From positions 1 to 48,188 of the forward strand of contig VBWE01000026.1 in assembly GCA_006218065.1 (NCBI GenBank): 48,188 nt of DNA, given 5' to 3'. The notes below the pieces were generated by a model, which saw only the letters and a program-made list of their open reading frames with translations, was not told where the DNA came from and made no database searches. The DNA is from Bacteroidota bacterium. Its GTDB lineage: Bacteria > Bacteroidota > Bacteroidia > Palsa-965. The translations under genes were made by a program, and so were the position numbers. Each line of letters opens with the position of its first letter. The first letter of the stretch is position 1. Positions 1 through 42,188 of this stretch are shown in pieces.

Positions 1-2037
1 GGACAAACAAACATTTTATGTAACGGACAATGTACCGGTTCTGCAACAGTTACTCCAAGCGGTGGCACTGGCCCATACACCTATTCATGGGCGCCAAGCG
101 GAGGAACGGCTGCAACTGCTACCGGGCGTTGCGCGGGAACTTATACGGTTACTGTTACCGATGCGAACGGTTGTACAATTACGCGAACTTATAACATCAC
201 ACAACCGCCCGCACTCAGCACCACCGGCGGACAAACAAACGTGGTTTGTAACGGACAATGCAACGGATCTGCTACTGTAACACCAAGCGGAGGAACAGGT
301 CCATATACTTATTCGTGGGCGCCCAGCGGAGGAACGGGCACTTCTGCATCCGCACTTTGTGCAGGAACTTATACGGTTACAGTTACCGATGCAAACGGTT
401 GTACAACTACAAGAACATACACCATCACGCAACCGCCGGCCATCACCACCAGCGGCGCACAGACAAACATACTTTGTAACGGACAGTGTACCGGCTCTGC
501 CACTGTAACCGTACTTACGGGAACAGGTCCATTCACCTATGCCTGGGCGCCAAGCGGAGGAACAGGAACTTCTGCTTCTGCACTTTGTGCGGGAACATAT
601 ACTGTAACAGTAACCGGAGCCGGCGGATGTACCGCAACACGAACATTTACTATCACACAACCGCCCGCACTTTCCACAACCGGTGGACAAACAAACGTGG
701 TTTGTAATGGCCAATGCAACGGATCTGCCACTGTAACACCGAGCGGAGGGACAAGTCCATATTCATATTCATGGGCGCCTTCCGGTGGAACAGGTGCAAC
801 AGCTTCTGCACTTTGCGCAGGAACCTATACCGTTACTGTTACCGATGCGAACGGTTGTACAAGTACAAGAACATACACCATCACACAGCCGCCGGCCATC
901 ACCACCAGCGGCGCGCAGACAAACGTACTTTGTAACGGAGCATGCACAGGTTCTGCTACTGTAACAGTACTCACCGGAACAGGTCCATTCACCTATGCCT
1001 GGGCCCCAAGCGGCGGAACGGGTGCAACAGCTTCTGCACTTTGCGCGGGAACATATACTGTAACTGTAACCGGCGCAGGCGGATGTACCGCAACACGAAC
1101 ATTTACTATTACTCAACCACCCGCACTGAGTACTACCGGCGGACAAACCAACATTCTCTGCAACGGGCAGTGTACCGGCTCGGCAACAGTTACCGCAAGC
1201 GGAGGAACAGGCCCATATACATATTCATGGGCGCCCAGCGGTGGAACCGGGACTTCTGCATCCGCACTTTGTGCAGGAACATATACTGTTACTGTAACGG
1301 ATGCCAACGGATGTACGATCACAAGGACTTACAACATCACACAACCGCCAGCACTTTCCACTACCGGCGGACAAACCAACATTCTGTGCAACGGGCAGTG
1401 CACCGGTTCAGCAACTGTTACCGCTTCCGGAGGTTCTTCACCGTACACGTATGCATGGGCTCCTTCCGGTGGAACAGGTACATCTGCATCTGCACTTTGT
1501 TCGGGAACATACACCGTTACAGTTACTGATGCAAACGGTTGTACCATCACAAGAACTTATAACATCACCCAGCCGCCCGCACTCAGCGCTTCTGCAGCAG
1601 CCACACCGGCCACCTGCGGAGGAAGCAACGGTTCGGCAACAGTTACTCCCACAGGCGGAACGGGCGCTTATACATATTCCTGGGCGCCTTCCGGCGGAAC
1701 CGGGGCGACAGCAACTGGGCTTTCAGCAGGTGCGTATACAGTTACTGTAACGGATGCGAACGGTTGCACGACAACAACCATCGCGAACGTCACCACAACC
1801 GGCGGCATCACAGCGAACATCACCGCATCAACCAACGTGCTTTGCTTCGGAGGAGCAACCGGATCGGCAACGGCAGCAGGCTCCGGCGGCTCAGGACCTT
1901 ATACATATTCGTGGGCCCCAAGCGGCGGCAGTGCAGCCACTGCAACCGGGCTGATCGCAGGAACTTATACAGTAACTGTTACTGATGCATTCAGCTGCGT
2001 GGCAACGGCAACGGTTACTATCACGCAACCGCCGCAA
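1..2037 (+). repeat. Tandem 228-bp SprB repeats, nine units
   Basis: The first cysteine codon of each unit falls at 19, 247, 475, 703, 931, 1159, 1387, 1615 and 1843, an exact spacing of 228 bp (76 codons). The first units partly alternate between an ITTSGAQTN type and an LSTTGGQTN type, so part of the array has a 456-bp higher-order period. Confidence 0.9.
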
Positions 2038-5000
2038 CTCACCGCATCAGCCTCTTCTTCACCGGTGCTTTGTAACGGTGGTGCAACAGGTTCTGCAACC
2101 GTTACCGCTTCGGGTGGAACAGGTGCGCTCACGTATGCATGGACTCCTTCCGGCGGAACCGGAACTACAGCCACAGGTTTGACTGCTGCTACTTATACGG
2201 TAACAGTTACCGATGCAAACGGATGTACAACAACTGCAACAACAACAGTTACGCAGCCCACTGCACTGACGGCAAATATTTCCGCTTCAACAAACATTTC
2301 CTGCAACGGTGGTTCCAATGGTTCTGCAACAGTTTCTGCTGCCGGCGGAACAGGCGCTTATACTTATTCATGGGCTCCCTCGGGTGGAACAGGAACAACA
2401 GCAGGTTCGCTTGCCGTCGGATCATATACGGTAACTGTTACTGATGCGAACGGATGTACAACAACTGCAACAGTAACCATCACTGAACCGACTGCTGTTA
2501 GCGGAGTAACTTCTTCCACACAAGCCACATGCGGAGCATCCAATGGATCGGCTTCGGTTGTAGCTTCCGGCGGAACAGGAGCTTATACGTATTCATGGGC
2601 GCCTACTGGCGGAACCGGATCAACTGCAAACAGTCTTGCTTCAGGTAACTATACGGTCACAATAACTGATGCAAATGGTTGTACAGGAACTGCAACAGTA
2701 AACGTTGCCAACGCCGGCGGACCCACTGCAACGATCACCGCTTCCACAAACGTTTCCTGTTTCGGTGGTAACAACGGAACAGCAACCGCTTCTGCTTCCG
2801 GTGGAACAGGTCCTTATACGTATGCATGGACACCTTCCGGTGGAACCGGTGCAACAGGCACGGGCATGATCGCAGGTAACTACACCGTAACAGTTACTGA
2901 TGCGAACGGTTGTACGAATACAACAACAGTAGCCATCACCGAACCGCCGCAACTCACCGCATCGGCTTCTTCTTCACCTGTACTTTGTAACGGTGGCGCA
3001 ACAGGTTCTGCAACCGTTACCGCTTCGGGTGGAACAGGTGCACTCACCTACTCCTGGGCGCCATCCGGCGGAACCGGTACAACTGCCACAGGTTTGACTG
3101 CGACGACTTATACGGTAACAGTTACCGATGCAAACGGATGTACCGTAACAGCAACAACAACTGTTACACAACCCACTGCATTAACTGCAAACATTTCTGC
3201 TTCGACAAACGTTTCCTGCAATGCAGGCAATAACGGTTCTGCAACTGTTACTGCTTCCGGTGGAACGGGTGCGTATACTTATAACTGGGCGCCGAGCGGC
3301 GGAACAGGAACTACCGCAGGTTCGCTTATCGCAGGTGCGTACACGGTTACGGTTACTGACGCGAACGGATGTACAACAACTGCAACGGTAACCATCACCG
3401 AACCGACTGCTGTTGCAGGAGTAACATCATCAACTCAGGCGACCTGCGGAGCATCCAACGGATCGGCTTCCGTTGTAGCTTCCGGCGGAACAGGCGCATA
3501 TACGTATTCTTGGGCGCCCACAGGCGGAACAGGATCAACTGCAAACAGTCTTGCTTCGGGTAACTACACCGTTACAATAACTGATGCAAACGGTTGTACC
3601 GGAACTGCAACAGTAAACGTTGCCAACGCCGGCGGACCTACTGCAACAATAACTGCTTCAACCAACGTTTCCTGCTTCGGCGGAAACAATGGAACAGCAA
3701 CCGCTTCAGCTTCCGGTGGAACAGGTCCTTATACGTATGCGTGGACGCCTTCCGGTGGAACCGGTGCAACAGGTACAGGTATGATCGCAGGTAACTACAC
3801 CGTAACAGTTACTGATGCAAACGGTTGCACGAATACAACAACAGTAGTCATCACCGAACCGCCGCAACTCACCGCATCAGCTTCTTCTTCACCTGTACTT
3901 TGTAACGGCGGTGCAACAGGTTCTGCAACTGTTACCGCTGCAGGCGGAACAGGCGCACTGACTTATGCGTGGACTCCTTCAGGCGGCAGCGCAACTACTG
4001 CCACAGGTTTAACCGCCGCTACTTACACAGTTACAGTAACCGATGCAAACGGTTGCACGACAACTGCAACAACAACAGTTACACAGCCCACTGCATTAAC
4101 TGCAAACATTTCTGCCTCCACAAACGTTTCCTGCAACGCGGGTAACGATGGTTCTGCAACAGTTACTGCTTCGGGCGGAACTGGTGCGCTGACTTATGCC
4201 TGGGCTCCTTCCGGTGGAACAGGTGCAACGGCAAACTCACTTGTTGCAGGCGGATATACCGTTACAGTTACCGATGCAAACGGATGTTCAACAACCGCTA
4301 CGGTAACCATCACCGAACCGACCGCTGTTGCAGGAGTAATGTCTTCCACACAGGCCACTTGCGGAGCATCCAACGGAACAGCTTCCGTTGTGGCTTCGGG
4401 CGGAACCGGTGCATATACATATTCATGGGCTCCTGCCGGTGGAACTGCTTCGACTACCACAGGCGTACCTGCGGGCAACTATACAGTTACCATCACCGAT
4501 GCAAACGGGTGTACTGCAACAGCAACAGTAGCTGTTACAAATGCAGGCGGCCCGACAGCAACATTATCCGCATCCACAGATGTAACCTGCTTCGGTGCAA
4601 ATGACGGAAGCGCAACGGTTACTTCTGCCGGGGGAAGCAACCCGATCACGTATGCATGGACGCCTTCGGGCGGTTCCGCTGCAGCGGCAACAAACCTCGG
4701 ACCGGGAACATACACCTGCACGGTAACCGATGCCAACGGATGTTCTTCTACGGCAACCGTTACCATCACAGAGCCGCCGCAATTAGTAATCACAAGTTCA
4801 AGCCAGGTAGATATCCTCTGCTTTGGTAACAACACCGGTTCGGCAACTGTTGCCGCATCGGGCGGAACAGGTGCTTATGCATATGCGTGGGTTCCTTCCG
4901 GTGGAACCGGGGCAACAGAAAGCAACCTGGTTGCCGGTGGCTATACTGTTACAATTACGGATGCGAACGGATGTACCACTACACAGACGTATACCATCAC

Positions 5001-6927
5001 CGAACCGCCGCAACTCACACTCGCCGCTGCCGGTTTTGATGCCACATGCTTCGGCGCATGCGACGGGCAGGTTGTGGTTATCCCCGCCGGCGGAACACAG
5101 CCTTATGCTTTTGCATGGAACACAGGATGCACTTCACCCAGTTGCAACAGCATGTGCGCAGGAACGTATTCCATTACAGTTACCGATGCCAACACATGCA
5201 CCGTGAGCGGAACAGCAACAGTCAACGATCCGCCGCAGCTGCAACTGAGCACTTCCGTTGTGGATGCACACTGTAACCAGGCCGATGGTTCTGCAACAGT
5301 TACTGCAACGGGCGGAACAGGAGCTTATACGTATAGCTGGTCGCCTTCCGGTGGAACCGGCGCAACAGAAAACAACCTGGTGCCCAACGTATATACCGCA
5401 ACGGTTACCGATGCCAACGGATGTACATCAACCGCTACGGCAACCGTAGGAAACCTGAACGGGGTTAACGTGCAGGTGAGCAATACAACAAACGCAACCT
5501 GTTTCGGCGCCTGCGACGGACAAGCGACGATCACACTCAGCGGAGGCAATGCACCATATACTATTGCATGGCCATCGGGTGGAAATGCAACTACAGAAAC
5601 AAATCTCTGTGCAGGAAATTTCGTGGTGAACGTTACCGATGTGGACGGCTGTCCCAGCACAGCAACCATAACAATCACCGAACCGCCGCAGCTGCAGGTA
5701 ACCACGAACACACCGCCGGTAATCTGCATCGGGCAGAACGTAACGCTCACAGCAAATATTTCCGGGGGAACAGCGCCTTACACGGAAGTATGGACACCTT
5801 CAGGCCCGAACGTTTCTCCGACTACGACAACAACCTACACGGTAAACGTCACCGATGCAAACGGATGTACAACAGCCGCACAAACAGTAACGGTAACGGT
5901 TAATCCCGCCCTGAACGTAGTTGCTTCACCCAACGTGTCCATCTGCCCGGGCGCTAACACACAGCTCTCTGCTGTTGGAAACGGCGGAGACGGTAACCTG
6001 ACATATACCTGGACTCCCGCACCCGGCGCCGGAAATCCGGTTACTGTCTCTCCGTCAAGCACAACGGTTTACACGGTAACAATTACCGACGGATGCGGAA
6101 CGCCCGCTGCTGTTTCTACCGTTACTGTTACCGTACTCAGCCCACCCGCAGTGGTGTTCACATCCGATGTGCAGTCGGGTTGCGCACCGCTTTGTGTTTC
6201 ATTTACCAATACCACTCCGAGCGCTACTTCATGCTCCTGGGATTTTGGTGACGGCGGCACCGATAACACAACATGCAACCCGGTGTACTGCTACAATACT
6301 CCAGGAGCCTATGATGTAACACTCACTGTAAGCGATGCAAACGGTTGCGTTTCCACGCTGCTGATACCCGCGTACATCAACGTGTTCCCTATCCCGGTTG
6401 CTGAGTTTACGTACGGACCGCAGCCCACCACCATCCTCAATCCGACCATCTCATTTACCGATCAGTCTATCGGCGCAAGTTCCTGGAACTGGAACTTCGG
6501 TGATCTGCTCAACTCCGCTTCCAGCCTGCAAAACCCGAGCTTCACCTATGCAGATACCGGTTGCTACGATGTTACACTGACCATCACCAATGCCAGCGGA
6601 TGTACTGCTGATACCACGCATCAAGTTTGTATCGAAGGAGACTTCGTGATCTATGCACCGAATGCCTTCACTCCGAATGATGACGGTAAGAACGACCTGT
6701 TCCTCCCGGTCGGCGTCGGTATCGATGAAGCCAATTTCGAAATGTGGATTTTCGATCGCTGGGGTAATATGATTTATTACACGGACAACCTGTACAAAGG
6801 ATGGGACGGACATGCTCACCAGGGTGAAGAAGTTGCACAGATCGATACCTATGTCTGGAAAATCAAACTGAAAGACATCCTGGGCAACAAGCACAGCTAT
6901 ATCGGAAAAGTAAGTCTCATTAAATAA
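1..6927 (+). CDS. Giant SprB-repeat adhesin with CHU_C domain (5' truncated)
   Basis: The reading frame is open from base 1, so the true start lies outside the window; 2308 residues are visible. About 25 SprB-type repeats of roughly 76 residues fill bases 1-5700 (each with a CNG or CFG cysteine, PYTYSW, GTYTVTVTDANGC). Two Ig/PKD-like modules follow, then PKD domains with WDFGD and WNFGD motifs at about 6240-6600. The C-terminal gliding-motility-associated domain (CHU_C) starts near 6650 with APNAFTPNDDGKND and ends in GKVSLIK. SprB-type proteins are cell-surface adhesins exported by the T9SS, and CHU_C is the type B sorting signal that generally relies on a PorP/SprF-like partner. The repeats are very rich in Thr, Gly, Ser and Ala, with about two Cys per unit. 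The assignment as a T9SS-exported surface adhesin is firm; ligand and gliding role are unknown. Confidence 0.93.
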   Translation, partial: GQTNILCNGQCTGSATVTPSGGTGPYTYSWAPSGGTAATATGRCAGTYTVTVTDANGCTITRTYNITQPPALSTTGGQTNVVCNGQCNGSATVTPSGGTGPYTYSWAPSGGTGTSASALCAGTYTVTVTDANGCTTTRTYTITQPPAITTSGAQTNILCNGQCTGSATVTVLTGTGPFTYAWAPSGGTGTSASALCAGTYTVTVTGAGGCTATRTFTITQPPALSTTGGQTNVVCNGQCNGSATVTPSGGTSPYSYSWAPSGGTGATASALCAGTYTVTVTDANGCTSTRTYTITQPPAITTSGAQTNVLCNGACTGSATVTVLTGTGPFTYAWAPSGGTGATASALCAGTYTVTVTGAGGCTATRTFTITQPPALSTTGGQTNILCNGQCTGSATVTASGGTGPYTYSWAPSGGTGTSASALCAGTYTVTVTDANGCTITRTYNITQPPALSTTGGQTNILCNGQCTGSATVTASGGSSPYTYAWAPSGGTGTSASALCSGTYTVTVTDANGCTITRTYNITQPPALSASAAATPATCGGSNGSATVTPTGGTGAYTYSWAPSGGTGATATGLSAGAYTVTVTDANGCTTTTIANVTTTGGITANITASTNVLCFGGATGSATAAGSGGSGPYTYSWAPSGGSAATATGLIAGTYTVTVTDAFSCVATATVTITQPPQLTASASSSPVLCNGGATGSATVTASGGTGALTYAWTPSGGTGTTATGLTAATYTVTVTDANGCTTTATTTVTQPTALTANISASTNISCNGGSNGSATVSAAGGTGAYTYSWAPSGGTGTTAGSLAVGSYTVTVTDANGCTTTATVTITEPTAVSGVTSSTQATCGASNGSASVVASGGTGAYTYSWAPTGGTGSTANSLASGNYTVTITDANGCTGTATVNVANAGGPTATITASTNVSCFGGNNGTATASASGGTGPYTYAWTPSGGTGATGTGMIAGNYTVTVTDANGCTNTTTVAITEPPQLTASASSSPVLCNGGATGSATVTASGGTGALTYSWAPSGGTGTTATGLTATTYTVTVTDANGCTVTATTTVTQPTALTANISASTNVSCNAGNNGSATVTASGGTGAYTYNWAPSGGTGTTAGSLIAGAYTVTVTDANGCTTTATVTITEPTAVAGVTSSTQATCGASNGSASVVASGGTGAYTYSWAPTGGTGSTANSLASGNYTVTITDANGCTGTATVNVANAGGPTATITASTNVSCFGGNNGTATASASGGTGPYTYAWTPSGGTGATGTGMIAGNYTVTVTDANGCTNTTTVVITEPPQLTASASSSPVLCNGGATGSATVTAAGGTGALTYAWTPSGGSATTATGLTAATYTVTVTDANGCTTTATTTVTQPTALTANISASTNVSCNAGNDGSATVTASGGTGALTYAWAPSGGTGATANSLVAGGYTVTVTDANGCSTTATVTITEPTAVAGVMSSTQATCGASNGTASVVASGGTGAYTYSWAPAGGTASTTTGVPAGNYTVTITDANGCTATATVAVTNAGGPTATLSASTDVTCFGANDGSATVTSAGGSNPITYAWTPSGGSAAAATNLGPGTYTCTVTDANGCSSTATVTITEPPQLVITSSSQVDILCFGNNTGSATVAASGGTGAYAYAWVPSGGTGATESNLVAGGYTVTITDANGCTTTQTYTITEPPQLTLAAAGFDATCFGACDGQVVVIPAGGTQPYAFAWNTGCTSPSCNSMCAGTYSITVTDANTCTVSGTATVNDPPQLQLSTSVVDAHCNQADGSATVTATGGTGAYTYSWSPSGGTGATENNLVPNVYTATVTDANGCTSTATATVGNLNGVNVQVSNTTNATCFGACDGQATITLSGGNAPYTIAWPSGGNATTETNLCAGNFVVNVTDVDGCPSTATITITEPPQLQVTTNTPPVICIGQNVTLTANISGGTAPYTEVWTPSGPNVSPTTTTTYTVNVTDANGCTTAAQTVTVTVNPALNVVASPNVSICPGANTQLSAVGNGGDGNLTYTWTPAPGAGNPVTVSPSSTTVYTVTITDGCGTPAAVSTVTVTVLSPPAVVFTSDVQSGCAPLCVSFTNTTPSATSCSWDFGDGGTDNTTCNPVYCYNTPGAYDVTLTVSDANGCVSTLLIPAYINVFPIPVAEFTYGPQPTTILNPTISFTDQSIGASSWNWNFGDLLNSASSLQNPSFTYADTGCYDVTLTITNASGCTADTTHQVCIEGDFVIYAPNAFTPNDDGKNDLFLPVGVGIDEANFEMWIFDRWGNMIYYTDNLYKGWDGHAHQGEEVAQIDTYVWKIKLKDILGNKHSYIGKVSLIK
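2038..4782 (+). repeat. Three tandem copies of a 915-bp higher-order SprB repeat
   Basis: Blocks starting at 2038, 2953 and 3868 are each exactly 915 bp (305 codons) and each contains four SprB units. A fourth, divergent block begins at 4783. Within a block the cysteine spacing is 231, 228, 228 and 228 bp. Blocks 1 and 2 are almost identical in protein sequence over their last two units but differ at many third codon positions. Confidence 0.88.
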
Positions 6928-27551: not shown

Positions 27552-28568
27552 ATGCTTTTACAGGAAAATTATCCGCTCCGCAAACTGAACACCTTCGGTA
27601 TGAACGCCAGCGCACGCTGGTTCACCGAGGCAAATTCCATGGAGGATCTGCACGAACTCTTCGGCGATTCCCGCACGGAGCAACGCCATGCGATGATTCT
27701 CGGCGGAGGCAGCAATATCCTGTTCACCAAAAATTATGACGGCCTGGTGATCAAAAACAACCTGCTGGGCATTGAAAAAATACGCGAGGACGATCAGCAT
27801 TATTATATCAAATCCGGCGCAGGCGAAGTATGGCATGCTTTTGTGCTGCATTGCATCGCGAACAACTATGCCGGGATAGAAAATCTTTCCCTCATTCCCG
27901 GGAGCGTGGGCGCCGGACCGATGCAGAATATCGGCGCTTACGGCGTGGAACTGAAAGACGTTTTTCACGAACTGGAAGCTTTTCACACGGGTGAAAAAAC
28001 GATACGGAAATTCAGTCATGCCGATTGCCGTTTCGGGTACCGGGAAAGCGTTTTCAAACGCGAGTTGAAAGATCAGTACGTCATCACTTCCGTCACTTTT
28101 CGTCTCTCCAAAACGCCGAAACTCAATACCAGCTATGGTGCCATTGAAAAAGAGCTGGAGCAGATGGGCGTTACCGAACCGGGTATCGCATCGGTAAGCC
28201 GGGCGGTGATCCATATCCGCAGCAGCAAACTTCCCGACCCGGCGCAGATCGGGAATGCAGGCAGCTTTTTCAAAAATCCCGTGATCGGTGCGGCGGAACA
28301 CGAACGGCTGAAAAAAGAATTCCCGGAAATCGTGAGTTATAAAAATTCAGATACCGATTTTAAACTCGCCGCCGGATGGCTCATTGAACAGTGCGGCTGG
28401 AAAGGTTTCCGCCAGGGCGATGCCGGTGTTCATAAGGACCAGGCGCTCGTGCTGGTAAACTATGGAAATGCAAAAGGCGAAGAAATCTATGCACTTTCGC
28501 AACGCGTGCTGGATTCGGTAAAAGCGAAATTCGGCGTGCTGCTGGAAAGAGAAGTGAATATTGTTTAA
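27552..28568 (+). CDS. murB: UDP-N-acetylmuramate dehydrogenase
   Basis: FAD enzyme that reduces UDP-GlcNAc-enolpyruvate to UDP-MurNAc with NADPH, the second committed step of peptidoglycan synthesis, in the cytoplasm. The 338 residues match the type I (E. coli-like) length. Motifs: FAD-binding ILGGGSNILF (49-58), IPGSVGAGPMQNIGAYG, FGYRES with the catalytic-site Arg164, GNAGSFFKNP with the proton-donor Ser238, and the C-terminal LEREV with Glu334. The start is supported by the conserved N-terminal PLRKLNTFGM. The last codon and stop (GTT TAA) lie inside the left arm of the inverted repeat that follows. Confidence 0.97.
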   Translation: MLLQENYPLRKLNTFGMNASARWFTEANSMEDLHELFGDSRTEQRHAMILGGGSNILFTKNYDGLVIKNNLLGIEKIREDDQHYYIKSGAGEVWHAFVLHCIANNYAGIENLSLIPGSVGAGPMQNIGAYGVELKDVFHELEAFHTGEKTIRKFSHADCRFGYRESVFKRELKDQYVITSVTFRLSKTPKLNTSYGAIEKELEQMGVTEPGIASVSRAVIHIRSSKLPDPAQIGNAGSFFKNPVIGAAEHERLKKEFPEIVSYKNSDTDFKLAAGWLIEQCGWKGFRQGDAGVHKDQALVLVNYGNAKGEEIYALSQRVLDSVKAKFGVLLEREVNIV

Positions 28569-28729
28569 AATTCCTTCGGAATAGTCTTTTATTAAGCGGC
28601 AGTCGGCAGCAGCAGCATTTGTATTGCAGCAATGTTCCTGGAAAACCCAGGCAACAAGCGAAGCGCACTACGTTGACTGCCGCTGCCGACTGCTGCTGCT
28701 ACCGGATCTATTCCGAAGGAATTTTAAAC
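28563..28729. repeat. 167-bp element with perfect 22-bp terminal inverted repeats between convergent genes
   Basis: The arms at 28563-28584 and 28708-28729 are exact reverse complements (outer ends GTTTAAAATTCC). A second inverted pair GCAGTCGGCAGC (28599-28610) / GCTGCCGACTGC (28682-28693) is nested inside. Both murB and the convergent gene end with Val-stop (GTT TAA) exactly at the outer ends of the arms. It may form a long cruciform or RNA hairpin and end transcription from both sides. Confidence 0.85.
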
Positions 28730-30277
28730 AGTCTCTTTTCCCTTCCGGTATTTTTCTTTAACCACATCCCCGAAAGCCCGTCCTTCTATCTTCCCGGTCA
28801 GCCAGCTGATAAAATCGAAATACTCCGTTGTTCTTCGTTCGTGCGGATCGGTAACGAGTTGTTCGAGTACGGTTTTCAGCCCGGCAAACGCTTTTTTGGT
28901 TTCGGCAGGCGTATGCATCTGCGGCATTTTTTTGCGGATGAAATCGATCATGGCCTGCTCGAGGCGGAACAGTTGCTTTTTCCCGGCAAGGTACCGGTAA
29001 GTCGATTTCACAAAGTATTCAAACGAATCTTCATGACCGAGTTCGTAATGGATAATGAGGTTGAACAGGTGTGCGAAAATGCGGATGTCTTCACGCAGTT
29101 CCGATTTTTCGTTCAGTACCTGGTTGAGCCAGTGCAAAGCTTTCCGGTAATTGCCGTTGCCGAAATACGCATACGAAAAGGTGTAGCAGAAACTGATTTC
29201 CGTCGATTTGGGCATATCGTTCCGCAAGGCTTGCACGGCTTCTTCAATTTCGCCGATGAGTTGAACACCGTGACCGAATTCTCCCCGATGTATGTAATAG
29301 TGCAATACCGAAGCGCAGCAACTCATCAGCCGGATGCGGGTCGCCGGGCCGTTGGCAGTATCGTGTAATTTTTCTATGACTTTCCCGAAAGCATAAGCCA
29401 GTTCCCGTTCATGGGCGGTGTATTCGCAGGCTATGATAAAACTGTTCAGCGCCGAAGCATACACATGGGGAAGTATATCCATCTGTTCCGGGTGATTTTC
29501 AAAATGGCGCAGGGTTTTCAGACGGTATTCGTAACAGGCGGGCCAGTCGTTCAGAATCATATAATACATTCCGCAGACGGTGAAGTGATAATATTTTTCA
29601 TGGAACGAAAGTGTATCCGGGTTACGTTTCATGAGCGGCGAACGGAATATTTTTTCGAGCGATTCCCGGTTGTTTTTCTGGTAAAGCACTCCGCCGCTGC
29701 GGAACAGGCGAAGCATCCGGAGCAGCAACACACGGTACGCGACCATCGCCTGCACAGCCGCAGCCGCGGTTTCGCTGTCTTCGAGAATACGATCTACTTC
29801 CAGGTCCGTTTTCTGAACAGTGGCGAATGTTTCGTTCAGCAAACGTTCTTCCCAGTGCAGGATATCGGTCAGCAGGTACATACGCTCGTTATCCGCTGCC
29901 AGTTTCCGCGCTTTCTGCAAAAGCCGCAAACTCTGCCGCAGCAGCCTCCGGTTGAAAAGCAGTTCCGTTTCCTGCAGCATATTCCTGATCCGGCTGTCGA
30001 TGCTTTCGCCGGCATGCAGGTTGCGGAGACTTTCGAGCAATAAATCGTAGAGGTATTTTTTCCTGTTGGAAAATTGTGCCGGTGTAATCTTCGGAATTTT
30101 TTTCAGGATTTTTTTCTCATCGTATTTTTCCTGCGCGTCGATCAGGCGAAAAAGTGTGATGTATGCATTTTGCGATCCACGTTCCTGCGCAGAAGCAAAA
30201 ATCCGGAAATGCCTTTTCTCCGCTTTCGTCATCGTGCGGATCAATTCGAAGAGATCTTCGGAAGGTCGTTTTGGCAT
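28724..30277 (-). CDS. Helical cytoplasmic protein of unknown function
   Basis: The product has 517 residues with no signal peptide or membrane segment. It begins PKRPSEDLFELIRTMTKAEKRHFRIFA and has a strongly charged, alpha-helical composition with repeat-like helical pairs (e.g. SYAYFGNGNYRKALHWLNQVL near residue 370), suggesting a TPR-like superhelix. I do not recognise catalytic motifs. Similar uncharacterised proteins occur in other Bacteroidota, as far as I recall. It converges on murB through the shared inverted repeat and is divergent from the GEVED gene across an AT-rich 150-bp gap. Confidence 0.78.
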   Translation of the reverse strand: MPKRPSEDLFELIRTMTKAEKRHFRIFASAQERGSQNAYITLFRLIDAQEKYDEKKILKKIPKITPAQFSNRKKYLYDLLLESLRNLHAGESIDSRIRNMLQETELLFNRRLLRQSLRLLQKARKLAADNERMYLLTDILHWEERLLNETFATVQKTDLEVDRILEDSETAAAAVQAMVAYRVLLLRMLRLFRSGGVLYQKNNRESLEKIFRSPLMKRNPDTLSFHEKYYHFTVCGMYYMILNDWPACYEYRLKTLRHFENHPEQMDILPHVYASALNSFIIACEYTAHERELAYAFGKVIEKLHDTANGPATRIRLMSCCASVLHYYIHRGEFGHGVQLIGEIEEAVQALRNDMPKSTEISFCYTFSYAYFGNGNYRKALHWLNQVLNEKSELREDIRIFAHLFNLIIHYELGHEDSFEYFVKSTYRYLAGKKQLFRLEQAMIDFIRKKMPQMHTPAETKKAFAGLKTVLEQLVTDPHERRTTEYFDFISWLTGKIEGRAFGDVVKEKYRKGKETV

Positions 30278-32998: not shown

Positions 32999-34099
32999 TC
33001 AGTGGGTTACGTTTAAAGCAGCTTTTTCACGGTAAAAATCCAGCGATTCGAGTATGAGTTCGGTAGTGCATTTTTTATTGACCACCGCTATCCCGATATC
33101 ATCGAGCAAGGTAAAGTTAATACCTTCACCCGTATTTTTTTTATCATGTTTCATCAGCTCGATCAGGCGGTGATCAGCCACGGGCTCCAGCCTGATTGTT
33201 CCGTACTTGTCGAAAAGTATGCTGGTGATCTGATCCACTTTTTCCGCGCTGAGTTTTGCGCAGCGATGCGAAAGATACACTTCGCAGATCATGCCCACGA
33301 CGATGGCTTCGCCGTGCAGCAGGGTGACGGATGCCTGTTCCAGGAAAAAAGTTTCCACGGCATGTCCCACGGTATGCCCGAAGTTGAGCGATTTCCGGAT
33401 ACCGCCTTCGGCAGGGTCACGATTTACGATGTCGTTTTTAATTTCAACCGAGCGGGAGATGATCGTATCCCAGGACGAAATATCGGCTACGTTCAGCCGG
33501 CAAAGTTCCGACCAGTATTTCGCGTCGGCTATCAGGCCGTGTTTAAGCGCTTCGGCGAAGCCCGACATCATTTCGCGCCGCCCGAGCGTTTGCAGGAAAG
33601 GAGGATAGATGCAGATCGCGCGCGGTTCCGCAAAAACGCCGATTTCGTTTTTCAGCCCGTCGAGGTCCACACCGGTTTTTCCGCCGATGGATGCGTCGAC
33701 TTGCGCAAGCAGCGTAGTAGGCACGTTCACAAAAGCGATCCCGCGCTTGAACGTGGAAGCCACGAATCCGCCGAGGTCGGTAATTACACCGCCGCCCAGG
33801 TTCACCAGCAGCGACTGCCGGTCGGCGCCCAGTTCACTGAGCACACGCCAGACCTGGATGCAGGTTTCGATGGTTTTGTTTTGCTCCCCGCTTTCCAGTT
33901 CGATGATTTCCGCGCCGGTAAGCCGGGGAACCATGGTGATGAGCCGCGGCAGGCAATGCTGCGAGGAATTTTCGTCTGCCAGGATGAACATGCTGCTGAA
34001 TGAATTCCTGCGCAGGAATTCGTTGAGGGAATCCGGCGCGGTTTCACCCATGAAAACATGATCGTTTCCTTTACCGATGGGATGCTGAGCGCCGGTCAT
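32999..34099 (-). CDS. aroB: 3-dehydroquinate synthase
   Basis: Second step of the shikimate pathway (DAHP to 3-dehydroquinate), an NAD and Zn-dependent cytoplasmic enzyme. I place the start at 34099 (MTGAQHPIGKG), giving 366 residues, the usual family length. An upstream in-frame ATG at 34228 would add 43 residues translated from the palindromic repeat and is not credible. Motifs: NLGGGVITDLGGFVAS (NAD binding), VPTTLLAQVDASIGGKTGVD, the metal ligands Glu in GFAEALKHG, His in NFGHTVGHA and His in LLHGEA. It is the first gene of the aroB-aroA operon. Confidence 0.96.
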   Translation of the reverse strand: MTGAQHPIGKGNDHVFMGETAPDSLNEFLRRNSFSSMFILADENSSQHCLPRLITMVPRLTGAEIIELESGEQNKTIETCIQVWRVLSELGADRQSLLVNLGGGVITDLGGFVASTFKRGIAFVNVPTTLLAQVDASIGGKTGVDLDGLKNEIGVFAEPRAICIYPPFLQTLGRREMMSGFAEALKHGLIADAKYWSELCRLNVADISSWDTIISRSVEIKNDIVNRDPAEGGIRKSLNFGHTVGHAVETFFLEQASVTLLHGEAIVVGMICEVYLSHRCAKLSAEKVDQITSILFDKYGTIRLEPVADHRLIELMKHDKKNTGEGINFTLLDDIGIAVVNKKCTTELILESLDFYREKAALNVTH

Positions 34100-34149
34100 A
34101 TGGACAAAGAAACAAAAACGGGGGCTTGTTTCAAAATCGGTAGTCCGTT

Positions 34150-34392
34150 GACTCACCCCCCGGCCCCCTCTCTCCGGGTGAGTTTCGTTGGTTTTCCAAA
34201 ATACTGTCTTTGCATCACTCACCCGCAAAGAGGGGGAGCCACAACTTGAGTTACCGGAACTACTTTAACACTTGCGTCAAAGACGCAAGTGTTAAAGTAT
34301 TACGACACCCCCTCTTTGCGACGTTGTCGCAAATTCGACTTTTGTTTATGCAAAACTTACAACGTCGGAGAGAGGGGGCCGGGGGGTGAGTC
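34150..34392. repeat. 243-bp triple-nested perfect palindrome (MITE-like)
   Basis: Three perfect inverted repeats are nested: outer arms 27 bp (34150-34176 with 34366-34392, G/C-rich, beginning GACTCACCCCC), middle arms 13 bp (CGCAAAGAGGGGG at 34224-34236 with 34308-34320), and inner arms 18 bp (34261-34278 with 34282-34299) with a 3-base AAA loop. The element fills most of the 338-bp gap between the divergent aroB and proline dehydrogenase genes. It holds no gene. No obvious target-site duplication flanks it. Confidence 0.92.
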
Positions 34393-34410
34393 CCGAACCA
34401 CTATTCCGCT

Positions 34411-34418
34411 TAACTTTG
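34411..34418 (+). promoter_or_regulatory. -7 box of proline dehydrogenase gene
   Basis: TAACTTTG (TAnnTTTG) lies 19 bp upstream of the ATG and 18 bp beyond the palindromic element. The -33 position would fall close to the end of the element. Confidence 0.5.
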
Positions 34419-34437: not shown

Positions 34438-35604
34438 ATGGTTTCATTCGACAATACGGAAGTAGCGTTCTCCGGTAAATCCGACAAGGATCTCAAGCGT
34501 TCATACTGGCTGTTCCGGCTCATCGGCAATCCCATGCTGGTCAATGTGGGTTCGGGCATGACGAAGTTTGCGCTCGCTATTCATTTCCCGATCAAGGGCA
34601 TGATCAAAGCCACTATTTTCAAACAGTTCGTGGGCGGCGAAACGATCGAAGAATGCGGGAAAACCGTGGAAGCCCTCGGCAAGTTCGGCATCGGAACCAT
34701 CCTCGATTATTCCGTGGAAGGCAAGGAATCGGAAAACGATTTCGAACACTGCAAAGCGGAAACGATCGCCACGATCAACCGGGCCGCGAACGACGTGCAT
34801 ATCCCGTTCTGCGTTTTTAAAGTCACCGGGCTTGCGCGTTTTGCGCTGCTCGAAAAACTTTCGGCTGGTGCTGCGCTGACAGCGGAAGAGCAGCAGGAAT
34901 GGCAGCGCGTGGAAAACCGCGTGGATGAAATCAGCAAAACCGCGCACGATCGCAACAAACCGCTGTTCATCGACGCGGAAGAAAGCTGGATCCAGCAGGC
35001 TATCGATAACCTGGCCGATGCGATGATGGCGAAGTACAACGCTCCGCGTGCGATCGTGTACAATACGTTCCAGCTTTACCGGAAAGACCGGCTGGATTTC
35101 CTGGAGAAGTCATTCGAAAAAGCGCAGCAGGGCAATTACCATCTCGGCGCGAAATTAGTCCGCGGCGCCTACATGGAAAAAGAACGCAAACGCGCGGCCG
35201 ACATGAATTATCCTTCGCCCATCCAGGATACGAAAGCCGATACCGACCGGGACTACGATCTCGCGATCCGTTTCTGCGTGGGGCATAACGACCGCATTGC
35301 GCTTTGCGCGGGAACGCATAATGAAGCGAGTTCCCGGCTGCTCGTGCAACTGATGCAGGAAAAAAATGTGAGCGCGGGAAATCCGTATATCTACTTTTCG
35401 CAACTGCTCGGCATGAGCGATCATATCAGTTTCAATTTATCGAATGCCGGTTATAATGTGGCGAAATACGTGCCCTACGGCCCGGTGAAAGAAGTGCTTC
35501 CCTACCTCATCCGGCGTGCGCAGGAAAACACGTCGGTGAAAGGACAGACCGGGCGGGAACTGAGCCTGATCATCAAAGAGAAAGAACGCCGCAGGAAAAA
35601 ATGA
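34438..35604 (+). CDS. Proline dehydrogenase
   Basis: FAD enzyme that oxidises proline to pyrroline-5-carboxylate, the first step of proline catabolism. The product has 388 residues and is monofunctional; the P5C dehydrogenase half of PutA is absent and must be encoded elsewhere. Motifs: AKLVRGAYMEKER (KLVRGAY at 239-245, FAD/substrate site), YFSQLLGMSDHISF around 319-332, and YLIRRAQENTSV with the Arg359-Arg360 pair that binds the proline carboxylate. No signal peptide; peripheral to the membrane in known homologues. The start follows directly after a -7 box. Preceded by the palindromic repeat element. Confidence 0.93.
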   Translation: MVSFDNTEVAFSGKSDKDLKRSYWLFRLIGNPMLVNVGSGMTKFALAIHFPIKGMIKATIFKQFVGGETIEECGKTVEALGKFGIGTILDYSVEGKESENDFEHCKAETIATINRAANDVHIPFCVFKVTGLARFALLEKLSAGAALTAEEQQEWQRVENRVDEISKTAHDRNKPLFIDAEESWIQQAIDNLADAMMAKYNAPRAIVYNTFQLYRKDRLDFLEKSFEKAQQGNYHLGAKLVRGAYMEKERKRAADMNYPSPIQDTKADTDRDYDLAIRFCVGHNDRIALCAGTHNEASSRLLVQLMQEKNVSAGNPYIYFSQLLGMSDHISFNLSNAGYNVAKYVPYGPVKEVLPYLIRRAQENTSVKGQTGRELSLIIKEKERRRKK

Positions 35605-42057: not shown

Positions 42058-42188
42058 AAGTCTCTGGTACAACAGACCCGGGTACCGAAGTCTTGGGTAC
42101 CCGAGTCTCTGCTAGTCGAAGTCTAAAAGACTTCGACTAGCGAAGTCTCTATAACGAGGACTCTTTAAACAGTCTATTCTACAGTCTT
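42058..42188. repeat. Degenerate AGTCT array with two hairpins
   Basis: AGTCT recurs about every 12-30 bp (42059, 42089, 42104, 42120, 42144, 42170, 42183). Within it GCTAGTCGAAGTCT (42111-42124) forms a perfect 14-bp inverted repeat with 42128-42141, and CGGGTACC (42079-42086) pairs with GGTACCCG (42096-42103). It lies between the alanine dehydrogenase-like stop and the next gene, so it may serve in transcription termination, or be a mobile or expanded repeat. Confidence 0.7.

Follow-up and report, generated by a model that had tools for sequence, protein, structure and literature searches.

The window, by which we refer to the whole stretch of 48,188 nucleotides that was analyzed, carries an element of inverted repeats at positions 34150–34392, placed between two divergent genes, aroB on the minus strand and proline dehydrogenase on the plus strand. 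The initial annotation had described three nested perfect inverted repeats in this gap, and an inverted-repeat search of the window recovered all of them, an outer one of 27 nt (34150–34176/34366–34392), a middle one of 13 nt (34224–34236/34308–34320) and an inner one of 18 nt with a 3-nt loop (34261–34278/34282–34299). No other perfect inverted repeat with close spacing in the window is as long as the outer one, and a uniform-base estimate yields an expectation of approximately 1e-9 perfect inverted repeats of 27 nt within 300 bp per window. Two further 20-nt inverted repeats, with 90% of their positions paired, are found one in each half (34164–34183/34217–34236 and 34308–34327/34359–34378). 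Because these imperfect repeats lie inside the halves, we read the unit as a left end hairpin, a central hairpin and a right end hairpin; the repeats themselves stand as annotated, but their triple nesting is better described as a central hairpin between two end hairpins that differ from each other. The window copy and its surroundings comprise the following parts.

32999–34060, minus strand: aroB (3-dehydroquinate synthase), left neighbor
34140–34149, no strand: degenerate stretch continuing the left end outward, GTAGTCCGTT (the flanks of 63 ends give the family consensus GTAGTCCGGGG)
34150–34176, plus strand: left outer arm, with the conserved end GACTCACCCCCCGGCCCCCTCTCTCCG
34176–34224, plus strand: end-hairpin module of the alpha type (left-end lineage), stem GGGTGAGT/ACTCACCC
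34224–34236, plus strand: left arm of the 13-nt middle repeat, CGCAAAGAGGGGG
34237–34260, plus strand: asymmetric linker, AGCCACAACTT...; most copies carry a beta or gamma module on this side
34261–34299, no strand: central hairpin of 18 bp with loop AAA (inverted-repeat search, copy comparison)
34300–34307, plus strand: linker on the other side of the core, TTACGACA, which reads TGTCGTAA on the opposite strand
34308–34320, minus strand: right arm of the 13-nt middle repeat (inverted-repeat search)
34320–34366, minus strand: end-hairpin module of the beta type (right-end lineage), stem GACGTTGT/ACAACGTC
34366–34392, minus strand: right outer arm (inverted-repeat search, end-core matches)
34411–34418, plus strand: Bacteroidota-type −7 box of proline dehydrogenase, TAACTTTG, with an equivalent box in eight relatives whose site is empty
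34438–35604, plus strand: proline dehydrogenase, right neighbor

Folded as single-stranded DNA, positions 34140–34402 reach –86.6 kcal/mol compared to –33.6 kcal/mol for shuffled sequences (z = –13.4). From this folding energy the formation of a hairpin or cruciform, one of three roles initially considered for the palindrome, is plausible, and it is probably part of the mechanism. The second role, that of a stable RNA, was not supported as far as a dedicated RNA is concerned, as no Rfam family reached threshold in a search of the element. An intrinsic terminator, i.e. a hairpin and T-run located 3' of a gene, was rejected in agreement with the initial annotation, since gene starts diverge on both sides and both neighbors are transcribed outward, aroB on the minus strand from approximately 34060 and proline dehydrogenase on the plus strand from 34438.

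The divergent pair of aroB and proline dehydrogenase is kept in eight relatives, where the spacer measures 141–257 bp, against 378 bp here, and does not contain the element. The empty-site comparison that had been suggested as a check thus identifies the window copy as an insertion. A TAnnTTTG box precedes proline dehydrogenase in each of the eight relatives, and the window element ends 18 bp before the corresponding box. Such boxes are also enriched just outside element ends in general (10 of 63 flanks, with approximately one expected), which we read as placement of the element beside promoters and not as a promoter effect, as the element itself yielded no established –33 match. A consistent target-site duplication was not seen in the flanks by eye, the boundaries being blurred by the GTAGTCCGGGG extension. 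In the genome of a sister genus, G005, copies of this end sequence enclose hairpins of a simpler kind, which in turn surround a central hairpin. One G005 copy is followed by what appears, by eye, to be an IS110-type transposase gene, and an element of that genome (L263) appears to be interrupted by a transposase-like ORF, IS110-like by eye.

The element belongs to a multicopy family. A 21-nt core of its ends has 61 matches in the genome with at most three mismatches, 46 of them exact, while the reversed control pattern has none, and the whole element as a query returns 113 local matches. A single copy with drifting arms had been named in the initial annotation as the outcome that would speak against its proposals; the end-core count excludes a single copy, and the arms do vary between copies but stay paired. 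Both ends were found on one contig for 21 elements. The true number is roughly 30–40, as many further ends abut the edge of a contig, and this figure is approximate because with so many contigs ending inside an element some elements are split. Contigs that start or finish within an element include C12, C21, C36, C37, C39, C49, C63 and C67, among others. A scan of the whole collection with the pattern of the extended module, in which the records of the bacterium's own genome were possibly left out, gave two stretches, both from one Saprospiraceae MAG, so that the exact extended module is rare.

Each half of an element consists of the end GACTCACCCCCCGGCCCCCTCTCTCC, a hairpin module of approximately 45–50 nt and the sequence GCAAAGAGGGGG. 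The modules fall into lineages, alpha and delta of the left type and beta and gamma of the right type, apart from a few exceptions. Nineteen complete elements could be typed at both ends, and every one of them joins a left-type to a right-type end, for which the chance would be approximately 2e-6 if ends were joined at random, with the reservation that the left/right grouping was drawn after inspection of the data. Elements with two like ends are absent, yet long perfect palindromes may be lost or remain unassembled, so that this is no proof of a rule. In most copies the orientation of the core goes with the end types, and in the window copy (L001) and in L002, L005 and L012 it is flipped relative to them. 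In these four the flipped core lies between the 13-nt inverted repeats, as if recombination had inverted it.

Pairing within the hairpins is conserved while their sequence changes. In 20 distinct 8-bp module stems, 7.45 of the 8 positions are paired, compared to 4.8 with shuffled partners, where the maximum was 6.1, and all 12 distinct central arms, of 14–20 nt, are perfectly paired. Sequence change with kept pairing fits repeated copying or conversion combined with a requirement for the hairpin. The extreme foldability and the pairing kept across copies would also be compatible with a selected structural site that is not mobile, be it a BIME-like site for binding of gyrase or IHF, a terminator or a structured RNA, and the copies do occupy intergenic gaps beside promoters and stops. 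The empty spacer in the eight relatives argues against such a site, however, as do the lack of an Rfam family and the mixed orientations of the genes adjoining the copies (8 divergent, 7 tandem and 4 convergent), which are unlike those of terminators, and we regard it as very improbable.

The third role initially proposed, that of a non-autonomous mobile element, is borne out by the many copies and by the empty sites in eight relatives. Short, non-coding, bounded by terminal inverted repeats and present in many copies, the element has these features of a MITE, and its two inverted REP hairpins around a spacer, again in many copies, are those of a REPIN. We are thus highly confident that it is a mobile, non-autonomous repeat of the REPIN/MITE-like kind.

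REP repeats are among the commonest bacterial repeats and are normally linked with Y1 tyrosine transposases (RAYTs), to our knowledge the only enzymes so far tied to them. A classical REPIN moved by such a transposase is suggested by the two Y1_Tnp genes that the genome encodes, by a GTAG/GTGG-like tag in the element ends and by the presence in Bacteroidota of TnpA_REP subclass 2.6, with its atypical flanking structures (PMC6006769). Nevertheless, none of the element ends lies within 1.5 kb of either Y1 gene, and none of 30 Y1_Tnp genes from relatives has a hairpin of the element type nearby, so that Y1_Tnp was rejected as the mobilizer and the RAYT explanation appears unlikely to us. One of the two own Y1 genes, in L061, instead adjoins another palindrome, GAGTCTCTGCTAGTCG... 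(L061:2017), which recurs at positions 42103–42149 of the window, differs from the element and is probably this genome's RAYT-linked REP family. As the enzyme link that defines a classical RAYT-REPIN, a RAYT carrying the same palindromes, was found neither in the own genome nor in relatives, the element is not one, and it is REPIN-like in its architecture.

A different association emerged from a survey that started from preselected gene families, DUF559 and Y1_Tnp. A free DUF559 gene of the genome (L067:120–491), adjoining fabD, is situated between two element ends, the only 2 of the 61 that flank such a gene. The leuS gene holds an in-frame REP-DUF559-REP insert (L094:1380–1860): a single open frame of 1078 aa runs through it, with the synthetase domains to either side, so that an additional nuclease domain is predicted for the leucyl-tRNA synthetase. 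A REP-flanked DUF559 cassette is also present in ileS (L093:1400–1810; the gene was identified by eye from its sequence), which contains in addition a separate in-frame repeat without DUF559 (L093:118–170), with the peptide LPLSAGEGAGGE. In relatives, visual inspection showed further repeats lacking DUF559, within tsaD and within a GNAT gene, and DUF559 domains are located within metH and acs of other genomes.

The DUF559 protein matches Pfam PF04480 with an E value of 9e-27, and the predicted model of the genome's own member (pLDDT 89) matches the Neisseria endonuclease-like protein NGO0050, with weaker matches to AbaSI and to the homing endonuclease I-Bth0305I. Residues E, D and H are invariant in 31 aligned members. 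As modeled, DUF559 has the I-Bth0305I-like catalytic fold with conserved acidic residues, and it is a putative small nuclease of the Vsr/EDxHD-like type. Since hairpins of the element's kind bracket its genes across the class, it is a candidate mover of the repeats.

The proximity of repeats was assessed in the class for 80 DUF559 genes that stand alone or are carried in cassettes. Of these, 14, from 12 genomes, have the exact hairpin, CCCCTCTC-N2-16-GAGAGGGG, at a distance of at most 200 bp, compared to 0.39 expected from genome-wide counts under uniform placement, and an intergenic bias could explain a few-fold excess, but not a 36-fold one. With a broader definition, any hairpin with 9-nt pyrimidine arms no farther than 250 bp away, 39 of the 80 genes are positive and 15 are bracketed on both sides, whereas none is found in the flanks 430–700 bp away (0/80) or beside the Y1_Tnp genes (0/30); by the same definition approximately half of the stand-alone DUF559 genes have no such hairpin nearby. 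Outside the bacterium's own family the exact hairpin occurs in 27 of 38 genomes with DUF559 and in 2 of 19 without, while the DUF559 subfamily with an insertion of approximately 10 residues, which includes the own gene, pairs with CCCCTCTCT-type repeats and the standard subfamily with CTCTCC or CTTCTCC types (11:1 against 1:16, with arm types scored by eye and unclear cases left out), two comparisons that are not independent, since the genomes are related; shared ancestry is left uncorrected in all of these tests. Four genomes of the same family have repeats and no DUF559 match, three of them being only 59–84% complete. In the part of the DUF559 literature covered, no link to palindromic repeats was found, and an earlier description may exist.

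The element was inserted between the promoters of aroB and proline dehydrogenase in this lineage, and the data suggest a mechanism for its movement. Its ends may fold into hairpins in single-stranded DNA at the replication fork or by extrusion as a cruciform, and a cognate DUF559 nuclease, encoded elsewhere between the same repeats, would recognize and cut them. Repair would then copy the element to a new site, and the copies that persist would be those in intergenic gaps or inserted in frame. We consider this full explanation, a mobile hairpin element inserted here and moved by a cognate DUF559 nuclease, to be probable; movement by DUF559 as such is the best single hypothesis, held at about even chances.

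The main rival is that the repeats are targets and not cargo, which DUF559 homing nucleases cut and invade after something else had spread them. The match of DUF559 to the EDxHD homing endonuclease fold is in line with this, and the DUF559-free repeats found in frame in ileS and, by eye, in the GNAT gene and tsaD of relatives indicate that repeats can arrive first. Some genomes contain repeats but no DUF559 match, and REPs are known as targets of other IS elements (PMC1525189). On the other hand, DUF559 lies between repeat hairpins in the cassettes within leuS and ileS, in the manner of a unit, and outside the own family the genomes without DUF559 are far poorer in repeats. Homing into existing repeats is rated as rather unlikely, at odds well below those of mobilization by DUF559. 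A broader reading, for which we find slightly less than even support, is that DUF559 represents a second, non-HUH class of REP-mobilizing enzyme, that REP/REPIN-like elements of Bacteroidota spread with their cognate DUF559, and that the REP-DUF559-REP cassettes are autonomous units that may also enter essential genes in frame.

Palindromes that are tolerated in frame inside proteins are a feature of the Rickettsia palindromic elements, which the in-frame repeats resemble in this respect; here, sequence and phylum differ, and there is a link between repeats and a nuclease gene. With REPINs, which are paired inverted REPs (PMC3116915), and with BIMEs the element shares two inverted hairpin repeats, conserved ends, a diverged interior and a scattered intergenic distribution. 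It differs from them in its length of approximately 243 bp, its third, central hairpin and its two non-equivalent end types, and in being linked to DUF559 and not to a RAYT. As in the RAYT/TnpA_REP subclass 2.6, a small nuclease-type gene has palindromes at its flanks that are also present at other places in the genome, but the enzyme in question is a PD-(D/E)XK-like DUF559 nuclease rather than an HUH one. With the EDxHD homing endonucleases of the I-Bth0305I type (Taylor 2011, as cited in PMC9403480), the DUF559 cassettes have in common the fold of the protein and the location in conserved genes, but REP hairpins bracket the cassettes, which are part of the reading frame and have no intein or intron.

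A tight link of REP repeats to another nuclease fold would provide a mechanism for REP-rich genomes whose repeats are RAYT-free, and DUF559, a widespread domain of unknown function, would gain a testable job. It would also explain the presence of REP-derived peptides within conserved proteins, such as LPLSAGEGAGGE in IleRS. The two-end architecture with its compensating stems offers a clear substrate for such a test.

Two further repeat structures are found in the window. A nested inverted repeat at 28562–28730, with perfect outer arms of 23 nt and inner arms of 21 nt, is unrelated to the element in sequence. Positions 1–6120 are occupied by a long array of repeats of approximately 228 bp, with related shorter blocks further on, which probably encodes a large repetitive surface protein.
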